From positions 8,149,501-8,213,500 of the forward strand of contig NZ_CP109009.1 of the NCBI RefSeq assembly GCF_036226685.1: a stretch of DNA of 64,000 nt, in the 5' to 3' direction. A program made the translations under genes and the position numbers. This document shows positions 15,833-25,285 of this stretch, piece by piece. How positions within the stretch are numbered: the stretch's first letter is position 1; each line of letters starts with the position of its first letter. Under the pieces are notes generated by a model. The model was not told the origin of the DNA. It saw nothing but the letters and a program-made list of their open reading frames with translations, and made no database searches. The stretch is from Streptomyces sp. NBC_00690. Its GTDB lineage: Bacteria; Actinomycetota; Actinomycetes; Streptomycetales; Streptomycetaceae.

Positions 15833-16933
15833 TCATCGCGGAGATGCGGCGATCCGCACGCGATCGCTCTCGTTGTCGGAGAGGAACGACGCCAGTTCAC
15901 CGCCCTGTTCGGCGACGCCGGCGCGATCCGTCCGTGAGAAGGGGCGCAGTGGAGTGACAACCACGGTGTCGTCGTCGACGCCCCACGTCGCGGAGACCCG
16001 GCCGTCGACCAGGACGACGCGCTCGCCGGCGACGGACAGGCCGCGATGGGCGTCGTCGATGATCCGGCTGCGATCGTGATAGCCCAGGATCGCGTTGTCG
16101 AAGGCGGGGAGGAACCGTACCGGCGCGGGGGTGTCGGGGTCGGGGCGCGGGAGGTCAGGGAGGTCCAGCAGCTCGCGACCCCGCTCATCGCGGAAGCTGA
16201 CCAGGTGTTCGCGCATCGCGGCGATCGCTTTCGGGAGTCCGGTCAGACCGCACCAGGCACGCAGATCAGCCGATGCGGCGGGACCGAACGCGGTCAGATA
16301 GCGCCGCACCAGCGCTTCACCGACCGGGTCGGTGCCCGGCGGGGCCGCTGGGTCGATGCTTCGCCCCAGCCATGAGGAGAGCAGTGCGTACCGCGCTCCC
16401 CCTTTGGTACGCCACAGCCCGCGCGGCGGCAGTTGTGTCGTCGGGAGGAGGGCTGCGATCAGCAATTCGCCCAGTGCCCGCGGTCCCGGGTCTGGCCAAC
16501 GCTCGCCGAGCGCCCTGGCGAGCTGGGACATCGAACGGGGTTCTTCGTCGGCCATGACCTCCAGGCCGGCCACGGTGAGTTCGTCGAGGTCCACGCCGTC
16601 GAGTTCACGGCGATAGGTGCCGAGCACCCGTTGACGCAGCATGCCGTCATGTCGTGCGCGCCAGGCCAAGGCATCGTCCGCGGTGACCAGATGGACGGTA
16701 CGGCGCATGAGGTGCATCCGTACCACGTTCCGCTGGGTGAGCAGGTTCGAGAGCGTTGCGGGGTCGAACCGGCCCAGCCGCGACCACAGCCCGACGAACG
16801 GTTCCTGGGGTTCTTGCGCTTGTAGACCGCCGAGGTGTGCGACGGCGCCGAGGACGGGGAGGTCGGCGCGATCGAGCAACAGTTGCCGGGCGAGCGTGGC
16901 GCGGTTGAGTGCCCGGGTGGCGAGGAAGCTCAT
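15833..16933 (-). CDS. AlkZ/YcaQ-like DNA glycosylase (winged-helix HTH_42)
   Basis: The 366-residue product contains the winged-helix 'DUF1006/HTH_42' architecture: ATLARQLLLDRADLP, LGGLQAQEPQEPFVGLWSRL, VRMHLMRRTVHLVTADDALA, a central RALGELLIAAL segment and a C-terminal RVVLVDGRVSATWGVDD. This family includes AlkZ of Streptomyces, which unhooks azinomycin interstrand crosslinks, and YcaQ. The catalytic Q-x-Q motif is present as Q38-A-Q40, the AlkZ-type rather than the Q-x-D YcaQ-type. So it probably excises bulky alkylated purines. Isolated gene with no biosynthetic cluster beside it. A short hairpin at 16957-16980 precedes the start. Confidence 0.82.
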   Translation of the reverse strand: MSFLATRALNRATLARQLLLDRADLPVLGAVAHLGGLQAQEPQEPFVGLWSRLGRFDPATLSNLLTQRNVVRMHLMRRTVHLVTADDALAWRARHDGMLRQRVLGTYRRELDGVDLDELTVAGLEVMADEEPRSMSQLARALGERWPDPGPRALGELLIAALLPTTQLPPRGLWRTKGGARYALLSSWLGRSIDPAAPPGTDPVGEALVRRYLTAFGPAASADLRAWCGLTGLPKAIAAMREHLVSFRDERGRELLDLPDLPRPDPDTPAPVRFLPAFDNAILGYHDRSRIIDDAHRGLSVAGERVVLVDGRVSATWGVDDDTVVVTPLRPFSRTDRAGVAEQGGELASFLSDNESDRVRIAASPR

Positions 16934-17550
16934 CGGGTCATGCCTCCGAAATCTGCCCCACCGGCCCCTTGCCCGGTGGGCGCGTGCAGCTGACCCCTGG
17001 CGATGTGTGCAGGCCCCCCATGGCGCTGGTCTCCTGGCAGGGTGTCCTGCCGCCGCTGCCTTGGGCGCTTGCCCGATTCCGGATCTGTTCCTGCTCGTCT
17101 GCTGTCACAGTGCTGTCGTTCCCATCGAAATCACGATTCCAGGTCAGGGCCGGCCGCCGCGCGTCCATCGGCCACGGTGGTGCGGCCTGCTCGATCCGGG
17201 TGCCGGTGCCCCGCTGCCACTGCACCAGGTCAGGGCCGATCGCCTGCACCGGACCGGATCTGGCGTCATGGGTTCTTCTGTCTGCCACGCGACCACCATT
17301 GCAGGAGTAGCGGACAGGATGTGACCTCTACTGCGGGCCGTATGGACACCAAAGCCGGAACTGAAGGAGGCATGCGCACAAGTGGCGCGGCGAAGTACGA
17401 ACGCCGCGGCCGGCATGGTCACCGCCCCCGCGGGCGTCGCCATGAACCGGATCGTGGCGCCGCTCTTTCGAGGTAATGCGCGACGTATGAACGGCGGATC
17501 GTCCGCCCCCGGGCTACGGTCGCCGATGACTTGCAGGCGCACATCCGGGG
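16934..17550. other. Intergenic region, no supported gene
   Basis: It contains an 8-bp-stem hairpin (CCCACCGG/CCGGTGGG, 16957-16980) just upstream of the AlkZ-like start. A strong ribosome-site-like GAAGGAGG at 17363-17370 precedes GTG at 17382. The frame after that GTG runs into the next gene without recognisable protein character, so I do not call it. No repeats or RNA genes are seen. Confidence 0.4.
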
Positions 17551-19947
17551 GTGCACTCGATCATGCGCGGGAACACTGGGGAACACTCGTGGACACGGGC
17601 GCCGAGGTGGCGCAGGTGGATGGCGGCCTGCTGCCTGACGGCATTCGCGGCAGCTCCCCTGATCGGCCCCGGCGGCGGCGATGTCGTATCCGGTGCACAG
17701 GCTGCGACCCGATCCGTTGCGGACGGCGCCGGTGGGCTCGTCCCGTACTACGAGGACCAGTTCAGCCAGGAGGGATTCGACTTCCGGGACCGACTGGGCA
17801 CTGAGTACAGAGGCGCGTACATCCGGGAGTCGGGCCAGTACGCCAACGGCTACAGCGAGTTCGCCAACGTCGCCGCAGCGCTCGTCGATCCACGCGGGCG
17901 GACCGACGAGGAACTCCAGTCCCTGCTGCGGACTGCTCGACCCGAGGAGGCACCGGCGTACGACTTCAAGCTGGTGCCCCTGGAGACGTGGAAACGCTAT
18001 CTGCGGCCCGGCGACTATCGGAACCTGCGTGCCGAGGGCGTGAAGAACCTGCTGATGGTGCGGGCGATGAGCTTTCCCGGCCTGCGGGAAGGCCGCAAGA
18101 AGACGGGCCTGCACTCCGAGAAGCTGATCAAGAATGTGCTGCAGGAGCGCAGGACCGGCAGAGCCGCTCTGAAGCCGCTCTCCTGGTACACCGATCGGGG
18201 TCCATGCGAAGAGTGCGACGAAGAGGTCATCGAGGACGGCACTCCGACCTATCACGCGCAGGAGTACGGCCTGAGCCGACCGGAGCGGGCGCAACGTAAC
18301 ACCGAGTTGAAGAAGGCCGAAGCCGAAGTTCACCAGGCTGCGAACAGTCAGAGGCGACTCGTCGAACGGGCGCAGAAGGCGGCCAAACTGCCAGCCGCAC
18401 AACGTGCCAACGAGCGGAAGGTGATCAAGAAGGAGATGGAGAAGGTGGCCGTTCGCCGGGAGACCGCGGAGGCCACCCGACAACAGATCACCGATCGCTA
18501 CCGGGACATCGAGAGCGTCCGAGCGGCCACGGCTCGCGGCAACCTCCGCAAGGACATCAACACGGCACGCAAGACCGACACCGCGGCCACGTCCCTCTTC
18601 ACCGCGGCTCCAGCGAACTGCCCCAGGCCGCAGGCCCAGAGCCTCGCGCAATCCGGAGCAGCCGCCTTTCGCCTCGCAGCCCATTCCACACCGCGGATCG
18701 CCAGCTGTGATGGCGCGGACGACCAGGTCAGAGGCGGTCTGGCACGGGGTCTGACAACACCGCACGAGGCACCAGGCGGTATCGACTTCTCCCGTCTTGA
18801 ACTGCGCTACCTCAGCGATCCCGGGGCGGATGGCGGTGGGCTTCGCTATGCCTTCAAAGCCCCCTTGACGGCATCGGACAAGGGGAGCGGATCGACCGGG
18901 CTCGCCGGTGCCAAGGAGTCGTCGGACGCCTTCTTCGTCTGGCTGCAGTTGGAACCCTCGACGTTCTGGGTCAACCTCAATCCCAATGAACCGGACCGCA
19001 TCGTCGACTCCCGGTTGGGCCGGACCGATGCGGGACGGGTGTTGCTGCAAGCCGATCTGCTGCTGAAGAAGACGACCGGCACCTTCATCCACCCGGATAC
19101 GAAGCTCGGCGCGGACTACTGGGAAGCACTGTCGGGGAACTGCATGTCGTTCCGCACCTGGATCGTGCCGTCGCCGGCGACCGTGCACCAGAAGGAAGGC
19201 GAACTGCACATCCTTGACGCACCGCTGGATGTGCAGATGGAGACGCAGTATCTGAAGTCGCGCGGCGCGAAGGCGACGATGTCCTGTGCGGAGCAGTCGA
19301 CGTCCGTGCAGGAGCACAACGAGAAGGTTTTTCGGCGCATGATCCTGCCCAGGGTGGTCGAAGCCGTGAACAAGGCACCCGAGTACGCAGAGCTGCGGCG
19401 TGTGTACCTCAGTCGGGTCGCGGCGGAGTGGTACCGCCAACTGAGCGCCCGTACGAAGACGACGTACGGTTCGATGATCGACAACGGTGACATCAGCGCG
19501 TACACCACCGCGAAGAGCTGGACTCCCCGCGACACCTTCGACCAGTACGTACGGTCCTACACCAAGGGCGAGTTCAAGGTGACGCACCGTACGCGCGAGG
19601 GCAACACCGAATACACCAAGACATATCTCTACGGCGGCGTCGACTTCACCGCCGTCCCCTTCACCTCCATGTCGGGCGACCGGCTGAAGGAGCGCTGGCC
19701 CACACTCACCCGGGATGTGAGCCGGTCGTTGGCACAACCCGTCACGGACACCCAACAGGGACAAGTGTGGCTCGGCGGCGGCGCGCAGAGCCTCGACGAA
19801 GGTACGGAGCCCGGCACGTCGGACGGCGAGGAGGCATCCGCCGGGGACGTCGCGTCCGCCGCCATGCGATGGCTGCCCGCGCTGCTCCCCGTGCTGCTCG
19901 TCCTCTTCGTCCTACGAAGGAGGGCACGACGTCGTTCCGGCCGTTGA
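17551..19947 (+). CDS. Exported membrane-anchored protein with zinc deaminase signature
   Basis: This 798-residue protein has an N-terminal signal peptide (RWRRWMAACCLTAFAAAPLI, likely cleavage after SGAQA). At 188-222 it has H188-S-E190 ... W-Y-T-D-R-G-P-C219-E-E-C222, the H-x-E / P-C-x-x-C signature of cytidine-deaminase-fold nucleic-acid deaminases. A charged coiled coil follows (~245-330). A large extracellular region contains FWVNLNPNEPDRIVDSRLGR and DAGRVLLQADLLLKKTTGTF (~465-520). The C terminus has one membrane helix (WLPALLPVLLVLFVL) and an arginine-rich cytoplasmic tail. So most of the protein, including the deaminase-like domain, should face outside. Whether it is catalytic, or a toxin, is unknown. 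No immunity gene is adjacent. Confidence 0.75.
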   Translation: MHSIMRGNTGEHSWTRAPRWRRWMAACCLTAFAAAPLIGPGGGDVVSGAQAATRSVADGAGGLVPYYEDQFSQEGFDFRDRLGTEYRGAYIRESGQYANGYSEFANVAAALVDPRGRTDEELQSLLRTARPEEAPAYDFKLVPLETWKRYLRPGDYRNLRAEGVKNLLMVRAMSFPGLREGRKKTGLHSEKLIKNVLQERRTGRAALKPLSWYTDRGPCEECDEEVIEDGTPTYHAQEYGLSRPERAQRNTELKKAEAEVHQAANSQRRLVERAQKAAKLPAAQRANERKVIKKEMEKVAVRRETAEATRQQITDRYRDIESVRAATARGNLRKDINTARKTDTAATSLFTAAPANCPRPQAQSLAQSGAAAFRLAAHSTPRIASCDGADDQVRGGLARGLTTPHEAPGGIDFSRLELRYLSDPGADGGGLRYAFKAPLTASDKGSGSTGLAGAKESSDAFFVWLQLEPSTFWVNLNPNEPDRIVDSRLGRTDAGRVLLQADLLLKKTTGTFIHPDTKLGADYWEALSGNCMSFRTWIVPSPATVHQKEGELHILDAPLDVQMETQYLKSRGAKATMSCAEQSTSVQEHNEKVFRRMILPRVVEAVNKAPEYAELRRVYLSRVAAEWYRQLSARTKTTYGSMIDNGDISAYTTAKSWTPRDTFDQYVRSYTKGEFKVTHRTREGNTEYTKTYLYGGVDFTAVPFTSMSGDRLKERWPTLTRDVSRSLAQPVTDTQQGQVWLGGGAQSLDEGTEPGTSDGEEASAGDVASAAMRWLPALLPVLLVLFVLRRRARRRSGR

Positions 19948-20250
19948 CTCCGCCATCGAAGCAGGTCGGAGGGCCGCTGGTGAGGAGTTCACCACCACCC
20001 GCCGCACGGTGCAATCCGTCCGGGTCGCGCCGGGAACCACCCTTCCGCACTACCGGCTGCAAGGCTCGGCTTGCACGACCGAGCCGCATGCACCACCACC
20101 GTGCCCCAGCCCACCGGGACGGGCTGGGGCACGGTGGCGAGCAGGTCTCCGCGTTGTTGCAGGCCCTCCGGGGGATTCGCTCATCGACGGCGCTCCCCAT
20201 ACGGGCAGGCCCAGCATCACGAAGGCCATGCCGTACGGTCCGGCAATGCG
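19948..20250. other. Convergent intergenic region with two hairpins
   Basis: It separates the deaminase-like gene from the flavoprotein gene. A small GGCTCGG/CCGAGCC hairpin near 20064-20086 precedes the strong terminator at 20097-20136. No gene seen. Confidence 0.5.
20097..20136. terminator. Bidirectional terminator, 16-bp perfect stem
   Basis: CACCGTGCCCCAGCCC and its exact complement enclose the loop ACCGGGAC. It lies between two convergent genes (stops at 19947 and 20251), so termination in both directions is expected. Confidence 0.85.
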
Positions 20251-23591: not shown

Positions 23592-24863
23592 TCACCCAGC
23601 CCAAGCGATGACGTTCGACTTCACACCCGATGCGACCACCCAATAGCGGCCGGGGGCTTCCATGGGGAAGGCGCCGAACTCGCGAGTGCCGTCGGCGTCG
23701 ATGGTGTGGATTCTCTGATCGTACGGACCGTCGGTGGTGTCCGTGTCCGTGTATGCGTAGATCATGACGTCCTCGTCCGGCTCGAAGCCGGTCATGTTGA
23801 CGTTCATCTCATTGCGATGCCCCCGAACGATGAAGATCTTGCTCGACGGCCTGTTGGTCTGCGCAGAGGTGGAAGGGGTTTCTCGCGGCACCGGTCGTCG
23901 GGGGATGGACTTCCGCGATGACGCAGCAGGTGATGACGAAGGACGGGGGGAGTCAAGGGCCTCGCTGGCCGGGCTGTCCGTGCTGGCCTTGTTGTCCGGG
24001 GCGCGCGAGGGCCGGCGCGGCGGTGCTTGTGGGGGAGTCGTGGACGCGGAGCGGGACATCGTTGTGGTGAGTCCGTCGGCTGGTCCGGTTGCGGGTGCGC
24101 GAATCCCCCGACGGCCCGGCTCCGCAGAGAAGGGCATGCTGACGACGAGGGCGATGGCGACGACGGTCGTGATCAACAACGCGATCAGAAGCGCAGTACG
24201 AGGCTTGCGCTGACCTGCACGCAGCAGCCTGCGCAGCCGGCCCAACTCCCTTGCATTGGCATCGAGCTCCAACGCGATGGCCCGTAGCACTTCGTCGTGG
24301 TCACCCCCGAAGGCACGTGACGGGAGGGTCGGCTCGATGAGCCTCTGCCGCTGGACGGTGGCCCGGGGAACCCGGCCCGTTCGAGCGTGTTCCAGCGCCC
24401 ACTTCTCTGCCCACTGCTCGGCCGCGTGCCGCAGCCGGTTGGCCCGCTTCTTGTCCGCTCTGGCCCGTCTCAGCTGTGACTCGGCCCGTCGACGGCGCTT
24501 TCGGAGGTGGTTCCGCTCCAACTGGACGCTCCGCAAGCCCCGTGTGCTCGGCACCGGCCCGTCATCGAGCCCACGCAGCTGGGACTCCAGTGAATCGATG
24601 GCCTCCAGCAGCTTCCACACCAGCGTCGTACTGAAGCGCTCGGCATCATTTGCGTCCAACACGAGTTGGACGATGCCGCTGTTGGCGAAGCCGCCGGGCC
24701 CCGCATACGCGTCTCCCGTATCCCGGGCCTGTTGTACGGGGGTTTCGTTCGGCGGTCGTATCAGTGATGGTTCGGCCGTCGGATCAACATCACCGGGTTG
24801 GCCTGCGCCGCGCCCCACCGGTAAGGGGCGACTCTCTTCGGGCGGGTCCTCCTGTGCGGACAT
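23592..24863 (-). CDS. Coiled-coil single-pass membrane protein, unknown function
   Basis: This 423-residue product has four parts. An N-terminal disordered part is followed by FANSGIVQLVLDANDAERFS and a helical region. Residues ~95-180 are a highly basic coiled coil (RNHLRKRRRRAESQLRRARA). A single membrane helix follows (TALLIALLITTVVAIALVVS). A Pro/Ser/Thr-rich external linker of ~100 residues leads to a C-terminal ~75-residue beta domain (SSKIFIVRGHRNEMNVNMTG ... RYWVVASGVKSNVIAW). The orientation with basic side inside is inferred from charge. The ATG at 24863 lies 26 bp after the stop of the next upstream membrane protein, suggesting an operon. I do not recognise the family. Confidence 0.65.
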   Translation of the reverse strand: MSAQEDPPEESRPLPVGRGAGQPGDVDPTAEPSLIRPPNETPVQQARDTGDAYAGPGGFANSGIVQLVLDANDAERFSTTLVWKLLEAIDSLESQLRGLDDGPVPSTRGLRSVQLERNHLRKRRRRAESQLRRARADKKRANRLRHAAEQWAEKWALEHARTGRVPRATVQRQRLIEPTLPSRAFGGDHDEVLRAIALELDANARELGRLRRLLRAGQRKPRTALLIALLITTVVAIALVVSMPFSAEPGRRGIRAPATGPADGLTTTMSRSASTTPPQAPPRRPSRAPDNKASTDSPASEALDSPRPSSSPAASSRKSIPRRPVPRETPSTSAQTNRPSSKIFIVRGHRNEMNVNMTGFEPDEDVMIYAYTDTDTTDGPYDQRIHTIDADGTREFGAFPMEAPGRYWVVASGVKSNVIAWAG

Positions 24864-24889
24864 GCGGGGTCTTCTCGCGAAACTCCTGG

Positions 24890-25285
24890 CTAGGTCGTGG
24901 GCTTGTCGGCGGAGTACACACCCGAGCAGGCGAAGCTGCCGGGCCCCTGTGCCGTGACTTTCCCGGAGTCCTGCACCCGCATCGGGATGCCGTCGGCACC
25001 GCTTCCGCGCACCCCGCCGCTGACCGCCGTGCCTCCGTCGCTCGCGCTTGCCCGTCCCGAACCGGTCACGATGTCCACCGCATCCGTCGCCCTGCGGGGC
25101 TCGGCAGCACCGGGGGAGGTGAACAGGCTCCACACCAGAGCGACCACTCCCGTGGCGCCCTGAACGGAAGCGGCGACCAACCGACCACTATCGGGGCCGC
25201 CGAGCAGCCAATACAGGGGCGTTGAGGCGATCGCCGCCGCCGCGCCCGTCATGATCGCAACCTTCATGCCCTTCGACACGACCAC
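24890..25285 (-). CDS. Small two-helix membrane protein with Gly/Ser/Thr-rich tail
   Basis: The 131-residue product starts with a GTG, five bases after GGAGG. Two hydrophobic helices (KVAIMTGAAAAIASTPLYWL and LVAASVQGATGVVALVWSLF) are followed by two degenerate repeats: TGSGRASASDGGTAVSGG and SGKVTAQGPGSFACSG. The tail looks like the low-complexity T/S-G-x-A-x-A-x-x-G-G-x-A-x-S-G stretches seen beside membrane helices in some actinomycete conflict-system proteins. That resemblance is from memory and unverified. It is the first gene of a probable pair with the coiled-coil protein. Function unknown. Confidence 0.6.
   Translation of the reverse strand: MVVSKGMKVAIMTGAAAAIASTPLYWLLGGPDSGRLVAASVQGATGVVALVWSLFTSPGAAEPRRATDAVDIVTGSGRASASDGGTAVSGGVRGSGADGIPMRVQDSGKVTAQGPGSFACSGVYSADKPTT

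Follow-up and report, generated by a model that had tools for sequence, protein, structure and literature searches.

The window analysed here, a 64,000-nucleotide stretch of Streptomyces sp. NBC_00690 (contig NZ_CP109009.1), carries an open reading frame at 17551-19947 on the plus strand with a codon-position GC of 0.65/0.51/0.81. A search of its own genome with a profile of the C-terminal half found a single copy of the gene. The 798-residue frame with a signal peptide and a C-terminal membrane helix, as described by the first-pass annotation, was borne out by the frame coordinates and the hydropathy profile. The two top hydropathy peaks lie at residues 770-788 and 24-42 and support the predicted export and membrane anchoring of the protein. 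Signal cleavage was judged by eye to occur near AQAA/T. The features of the gene are as follows.

17551..19947, plus strand: coding sequence of the 798-aa surface protein, GTG start
17551..17706, plus strand: predicted Sec signal peptide, residues 1-52 (hydropathy peak 24-42; also in the relative L012)
17860..18276, plus strand: deaminase module core, residues about 104-242 (alignments, hhalign, PF14440 in relatives)
18112..18120, plus strand: H188-S189-E190 (H and E invariant in module alignments; motif-masked BLAST)
18202..18216, plus strand: P218-C219-E-E-C222 (both C invariant in module alignments; motif-masked BLAST)
18277..18585, plus strand: helical hairpin or coiled-coil-like linker, residues 243-345 (AF2 model)
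18775..19788, plus strand: conserved C-terminal half, here called the chassis, residues 409-746 (profile in Streptomyces genomes)
19858..19914, plus strand: C-terminal transmembrane helix, residues 770-788, without LAxTG (hydropathy)
19915..19944, plus strand: basic tail RRRARRRSGR (sequence)

The module core runs in the order N-V-A strand, strand, HSE helix, strand, PCxxC, EYGL. By analogy with deaminases, H188 would be a zinc ligand and E190 the proton-shuttle glutamate, and C219 and C222 would serve as two zinc ligands. The motif does lie towards the N terminus as annotated, but not just after the signal peptide: the first core strand (N106-V-A) begins about 55 residues past the by-eye cleavage site, and HSE follows about 135 residues past it. 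The annotated coiled coil corresponds to region 243-345 after the core, which is modelled as a long helical hairpin. In the AF2 model of residues 61-360 this linker forms helices 183-217 and 222-285 (model numbering), a block with a pLDDT of 77-95 up to model residue 260 and of 49-69 thereafter.

The signature itself was examined for chance occurrence. Of 20,000 shuffles of the window protein, one contained the pattern H.E.{18,45}PC..C (5e-5) and 0.45% contained a looser pattern. An alignment of 22 deaminase modules, comprising that of the window protein and 21 relatives at 16-72% identity, has H, E, C and C as its sole invariant columns, and the S of HSE and the N-x-A come close to invariance. 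Knowledge of the motif guided the selection of these 22 modules, so the unbiased test is a BLAST search with the motif region of the window protein masked; it recovered six other family modules, and all six carry the motif. Since the modules from the masked search all have the motif and H/E/C/C is invariant across the 22, the motif is not a chance occurrence. Thus, the set H188-S-E190 plus P-C219-E-E-C222 reported in the first pass is confirmed by the sequence, the shuffles, the invariant columns and the masked search, and its conservation in homologues holds in 22/22 modules. This conservation bears on the suggestion, made in the same annotation, of a catalytically dead binding module, which might serve as an adhesin or nucleic-acid-binding domain. 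Such a role would fit the poor Pfam score of the window domain. It is made very improbable by the finding that across 22 modules no columns other than H, E, C and C are invariant, and by a dN/dS of 0.38 between the window module and that of L012.

Assignment of the module to a known family was less direct. No Pfam family scored over its cut-off with the window protein, NCBIfam gave nothing near a cut-off, and a search of PDB sequences gave no match. The Pfam near-misses over the motif, APOBEC_N and NAD1, both had an E-value of 0.16; being below cut-off, they were rejected as an identity and retained as a hint only. PF14440 (XOO_2897-like) hit neither the window protein nor the window module. 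It does match 8 of the 22 modules at E up to 1, with a best value of 6e-19, and in two relatives whose modules occupy the same position on the same chassis it exceeds its cut-off of 27 bits (L052, 67.9 bits; L062, 40.2 bits). The profile comparison with deaminase families proposed in the first pass therefore succeeded for these two relatives, and not for the window protein, which stays below every cut-off. Because the window protein has no PF14440 hit, its domain is filed as a probable divergent relative of that family and not as a member.

A profile of the module also matches other Streptomyces proteins, at E-values of about 1e-11 and weaker. Twelve such domains were aligned (alignment A6); PF14440 matches 12/12 of them, and nine of the twelve are situated close to the end of their open frames, which are 916-2,510 aa long. 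When a window-type alignment was compared with A6 by hhalign, the probability was 97.4% (E 1e-11, 59 columns), and a second window-type alignment gave 96.4% (E 1e-9, 59 columns), the E-values being those for a single comparison. The pairing extends from HSE to past CxxC and sets HSE against HSE and takes in [ST]-[DE]-R-x-x-C. The PF14440 domains of the large Streptomyces proteins share with the window-type module HSE, [ST][DE]R..C..C, the N-x-A strand and, in many of them, a GTP-x-x-Y-like strand past the second cysteine. They differ in position: the domain sits near the frame end in 9 of the 12 aligned, whereas the window module is N-terminal on an anchored chassis. In a profile search of the PDB, a dCMP deaminase and four APOBEC3 chains took the top five of seven places at E-values of 0.046-0.5, a ranking that is suggestive only.

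The AlphaFold model of residues 61-360, built from five sequences, reached a pLDDT of 67.8 and a pTM of 0.45. In it HSE starts helix 129-140 between strands 106-113 and 149-154, as expected, and the CxxC loop has a pLDDT below 50. A Foldseek search with this weak N-module model produced no match that reached E 0.001, and the 50 matches listed included no deaminase; the VIA matches listed fall mainly on helices 170-291 and include no deaminase. The absence of a deaminase match in the fold search is not evidence against a deaminase fold. With PF14440 in two relatives, the hhalign probability of 97.4% and the conservation of H/E/C/C, the annotated membership of the deaminase superfamily is well supported as a prediction. 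The module appears related to the XOO_2897-like deaminases and, more distantly, to the APOBEC deaminases, with a predicted deaminase activity.

The large unknown domain of the first pass was traced in other genomes. A first sample gave relatives in 10/61 genomes, and a pattern-based scan in which each species was represented by a single genome yielded 5 loci, all in Streptomyces. In an alignment of these first relatives the C-terminal half was conserved and the N-terminal parts were variable. The profile made from the C-terminal half (A1) detected relatives in at least 81 of 392 Streptomyces genomes, in at least 3 of 296 genomes phylum-wide, all of them in the genus of the window, and in at least 6 of 296 genomes class-wide, one of which (G843) belongs to another family and has a nuclease-type head as judged by eye. 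These genome counts are lower bounds because only part of the first-look candidates per genome was scored, and they refer to whole-genome sampling of the Actinomycetota, to which the pattern-based scan of all species was added. A relative was also present in G048, from another family of the same order. Six plasmid records carried relatives, all from Streptomyces, and none was found among the phages and viral contigs searched. No Pfam family scored over cut-off with the C-terminal half in the six members scanned, its profile found no chain in the PDB, and its AlphaFold model (pLDDT 42.7) was unusable. It may resemble a domain of exported proteins from Omnitrophota-like bacteria. Searches of the literature at the level of titles and opening abstract text, subscription papers and preprints aside, found no description of the chassis family. 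The unknown domain is, on sequence comparison, a conserved chassis with no Pfam or PDB relative found, and it bears exchangeable nuclease-like or deaminase modules.

For the comparison of modules, 91 regions were combined with L012-L016 to give 96 loci, and dropping the fragment-only L133-L135 left 93, window included. Positions already included as L012-L014, the second G277 copy and two minor fragments had been left out of the 91 regions. In all 93 classified members the conserved half comes after the variable part. The N-terminal modules comprise 22 deaminase, 68 PD-(D/E)xK nuclease-like and three other modules (L013, L061 and L131). The 68 nuclease-type modules were sorted by exclusion and tested afterwards: the pattern D...[EQ]xK is present in 68/68, and D153, E164 and K166, corresponding to the PD-(D/E)xK set, are invariant in the 33 of the 68 that were aligned. 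Pfam gave weak matches of these 33 to Tox-REase-9 (three modules) and Tox-REase-7 (two), the best at 0.0013, and because these matches are weak the term nuclease-like refers mainly to the signature. A match of the nuclease profile to a PDB 'iron-binding protein' (E 4e-5) was judged a chance local match.

In a tree of the chassis, the nuclease forms (68) and the remaining 25 members lie on opposite sides of a single branch (100/100). The window protein groups with L012, L052, L013 and L061 in a clade supported at 100/99, within which deaminase and 'other' modules occur together. The C-terminal parts of the window protein and L013 are 64% identical, and their modules have no BLAST similarity; likewise, L129 (deaminase) and L131 (other) are 85% identical in their C-terminal parts, and their modules show none. 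A short match between the window protein and L061 (30% over 89 aa, E 1e-4), located at the end of the N-terminal part adjoining the chassis, counts against a clean break between module and chassis. In five pairs, dN/dS was 0.38-0.94 for the module compared with 0.22-0.32 for the chassis. Taken together, exchange of modules on the chassis, with toxin-type modules on a conserved carrier, is supported as the probable history of the family.

The anchors follow the same division. Of the 68 nuclease forms, 64 have an LAxTG motif; it is absent from all 25 others, including the 22 deaminase forms with that of the window. LAXTG is the signal of class E sortase substrates such as the chaplins (PMC5148588), which the nuclease-type relatives resemble in this respect and the deaminase forms do not.

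The deaminase branch has a partial association of its own. A PrsW-like gene on the same strand adjoins 9 of the 22 deaminase genes, and also L131, compared with none of the 68 nuclease loci (9/22 vs 0/68, Fisher 7e-7). All three PrsW-like proteins scanned exceed the PF13367 cut-off, with 81.8, 41.7 and 27.4 bits. Directly upstream of PrsW in 10 loci lies a gene whose small product has a single membrane helix and LPTDLPT-type repeats, and the profile of this product matches just those 10 loci, a remnant in L135 and, as a weak stray match, L015 (E 0.007). L135 retains remnants of both the PrsW-like and the small membrane genes. Neither gene was found beside the window gene; there is no PrsW in the 64 kb, and one PrsW match lies elsewhere in that genome, about 4 Mb away.

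The joint occurrence of the two genes in 10 loci and of both remnants in L135 would suit a toxin that is shed. In the branch that has it, the PrsW-like protease would free the ectodomain by cutting within the membrane, the LPTDLPT protein would be an adaptor, inhibitor or immunity protein, and lone copies, the window gene among them, would depend on a host protease for release or be relics. In polymorphic toxins, PrsW has been suggested to act as a processing peptidase (PMC3482391); in the window family it is a separate neighbour gene, present in some loci only. We regard shedding of this kind as improbable, given that PrsW was found neither beside the window gene nor in 13 of the 22 deaminase loci, some of these absences being soft because the flanks of those 13 loci span only 0.1-7 kb, and that none of the 68 nuclease forms was seen to have it as a neighbour. 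Near PrsW, conserved ORFs on the opposite strand were dismissed as overlapping shadow ORFs.

Toxins aimed at kin are normally paired with an immunity gene. In the gaps at 16934-17550 and 19948-20250, no ORF passed a filter on codon GC; the nearest to passing was 16938-17288 on the minus strand (116 aa, GC3 0.77-0.78, GC2 0.62). This filter is a crude one, having likewise failed to pick up the AlkZ-like gene (GC3 0.80) and a 513-aa ORF at 23592-25133, and a Pfam scan and a locus search with the gap ORFs were therefore added. The eight longest small ORFs around the gaps had no Pfam hits, and 17 gap ORFs matched nothing in the 95 other family loci at E 0.01. The sole flank in common with L012 is the 86 bases immediately before the start codon. 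The AlkZ-like DNA glycosylase (15833-16933) was considered as a repair-type immunity protein and rejected because neither its gene nor that of the flanking FAD oxidoreductase was found in the other 95 family loci. Of four flanking proteins tested, the alpha/beta hydrolase alone matched (49% in L128). In agreement with the first pass, Pfam, the codon-GC filter and the comparison of loci brought up no recognisable immunity gene next to the window gene. An immunity protein of unrecognised type may still be encoded at the locus or at another place in that genome.

The absence of a recognised immunity gene beside the window gene is compatible with a surface-tethered barrier or processing enzyme, whose heads on the mycelium would damage or edit DNA or RNA outside the cell, such as phage DNA, eDNA or naked DNA that comes in, or would salvage nucleosides. 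In that case immunity would not be needed, because the enzyme would never be in the cytoplasm of the producer. The repertoire looks nucleic-acid-directed, with 90 of the 93 modules nuclease-like or deaminase-like, and the LAxTG signal of 64/68 nuclease forms would anchor them covalently to the wall. A precedent is SaEAS of Streptomyces albidoflavus, an exported alarmone synthetase that has no immunity gene and no effect on the Streptomyces tested (PMC12691689). Like SaEAS, the window protein would be a Sec-exported enzyme of toxin type that acts on nucleotides, encoded at an isolated locus with no immunity gene recognised; SaEAS was found in spent medium and, in the excerpts of that paper compared here, is not described as anchored or as borne on a polymorphic chassis (PMC12691689). 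This precedent keeps the barrier or processing role alive, because SaEAS is exported without an immunity gene and leaves the Streptomyces tested unaffected. However, housekeeping salvage accounts less well than an arms race for module exchange and fast module evolution, the deaminase modules have relatives at the ends of large toxin-like proteins, and the window protein matched none of the PADLOC anti-phage models at E up to 0.1. We thus consider a barrier or processing role rather unlikely, while giving it some weight.

The window family resembles the classical polymorphic toxins in having exchangeable toxin-type modules, a conserved carrier and a repertoire of nucleases and deaminases (PMC3482391). 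It differs from them in that the enzyme is N-terminal and the conserved part and the anchor are C-terminal, and in the lack of a recognised immunity gene next to the window gene. Toxins that are C-terminal, PrsW-linked or surface-anchored are described by Zhang et al. (PMC3482391); an architecture with an N-terminal module and a C-terminal anchor was not found in the excerpts of that paper compared here. An N-terminal catalytic domain with a conserved C-terminal domain also occurs in bacteria-killing type IV secretion effectors (TfcB). From what their description gives, such effectors have a translocation signal and immunity proteins, whereas the window protein has a Sec signal and a surface anchor and comes from a Gram-positive organism. 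In E. coli, expressed DNA deaminase toxins of other subgroups introduce mutations into DNA (PMC7901873).

On this basis we interpret the window protein, with about even confidence, as a polymorphic-toxin-like surface effector of reversed polarity, with an N-terminal enzyme and a C-terminal anchor. Sec would export the protein and its C-terminal helix would retain it in the membrane, for which the computation backs the export and anchor signals, with two anchoring styles in the family. The conserved C-terminal chassis would present the N-terminal enzyme module outward. In the window protein that module would be a zinc-dependent base deaminase, and in relatives a PD-(D/E)xK nuclease-like or other module; the identity of the module, the conservation of its catalytic residues, the exchange of modules and the link between a PrsW-like protease and part of the deaminase branch are likewise backed computationally. 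Most likely the module would deaminate nucleic-acid bases of a competitor once the cells are in contact or the ectodomain has been shed. Catalytic activity, substrate, target entry and antagonism are what we infer from this architecture, and the reversed, anchored and polymorphic architecture itself is supported by independent lines. Weighing against the polymorphic-toxin-like reading, no translocation domain was recognised in the window protein, the window domain falls below every Pfam cut-off, and the fold matches listed for its model include no deaminase. The repertoire is narrow (nuclease-like, deaminase and three others), the module is N-terminal and no immunity gene was recognised. The window copy also has no PrsW partner, and the same SaEAS observations, export without an immunity gene and no effect on the Streptomyces tested, count here as well (PMC12691689).

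Somewhat more tentatively, the family could represent an undescribed class of effectors of hyphal actinobacteria, in which a conserved C-terminal chassis, fixed by class E sortase or by a membrane helix and in some loci accompanied by the PrsW-like protease and the LPTDLPT protein, holds swappable heads, nuclease or base deaminase, on the cell exterior. These heads would edit or destroy the nucleic acids of competitors in contact with the cell, or incoming DNA and phage. No cognate immunity would be needed, because the head would never be active in the cytoplasm of the producer. Polymorphic toxins are described as C-terminal toxins with immunity genes, and the window family has the opposite polarity and a surface anchor, for which it uses two solutions. 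This polarity, the anchor and the lack of a recognisable immunity gene beside the window gene raise the question whether such proteins enter a target or guard the surface against foreign nucleic acids. The family may also be a source of divergent base deaminases for base-editing screens, and it suggests that a PrsW-like protease may take part in the shedding of surface proteins, a role that can be tested.

A gene for an AlkZ-like DNA glycosylase lies directly upstream of the deaminase gene of the window, and it was not found beside the relatives of that gene at the 95 other loci of the surface-protein family. At locus L015, a family member of the deaminase type is preceded by a gene for an HTH protein, and similar genes are also located near L054 and L056.

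Window 15833-16933, minus strand: AlkZ-like DNA glycosylase gene (E = 4.5e-77)
L015:2763-5261: HTH protein with long hydrophobic stretches and a NACHT-like match just under the cut-off

A recurring gene set adjoins the surface-protein gene at L014, L015, L016, L050, L056, L090, L128, L129, L131, and L132. It comprises a PrsW-like intramembrane protease and, encoded directly upstream of it, a small membrane protein with one helix and LPTDLPT-type repeats.

A third kind of N-terminal module was observed at two family loci.

L013:213-1244: third-type module member
L061:3933-5000: third-type module member

The two modules share 45% identity over 217 amino acids and gave no Pfam match over the cut-off, and the conserved C-terminal chassis beneath them is close to that of the window protein.

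In another genome, G277, a nuclease-type member is present in two copies of equal score on one chromosome contig.

G277:C1:52615-53499: nuclease-type member, copy
G277:C1:11487335-11488219: nuclease-type member, copy

One copy is located about 53 kb from each end of the contig, a placement as expected for terminal inverted repeats.

Three further XOO_2897-like deaminase domains, each over the Pfam cut-off, are encoded in the window's own genome (G000), two of them spaced 3 kb on the second contig.

G000:C1:3648562-3648864: XOO_2897-like deaminase domain
G000:C2:289385-289666: XOO_2897-like deaminase domain
G000:C2:292679-292951: XOO_2897-like deaminase domain

The long Streptomyces frames L168-L174 span 916-2,510 amino acids and carry an XOO_2897-like deaminase close to their end. 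Judged by eye, the start of L172 resembles WXG100-type secretion proteins.
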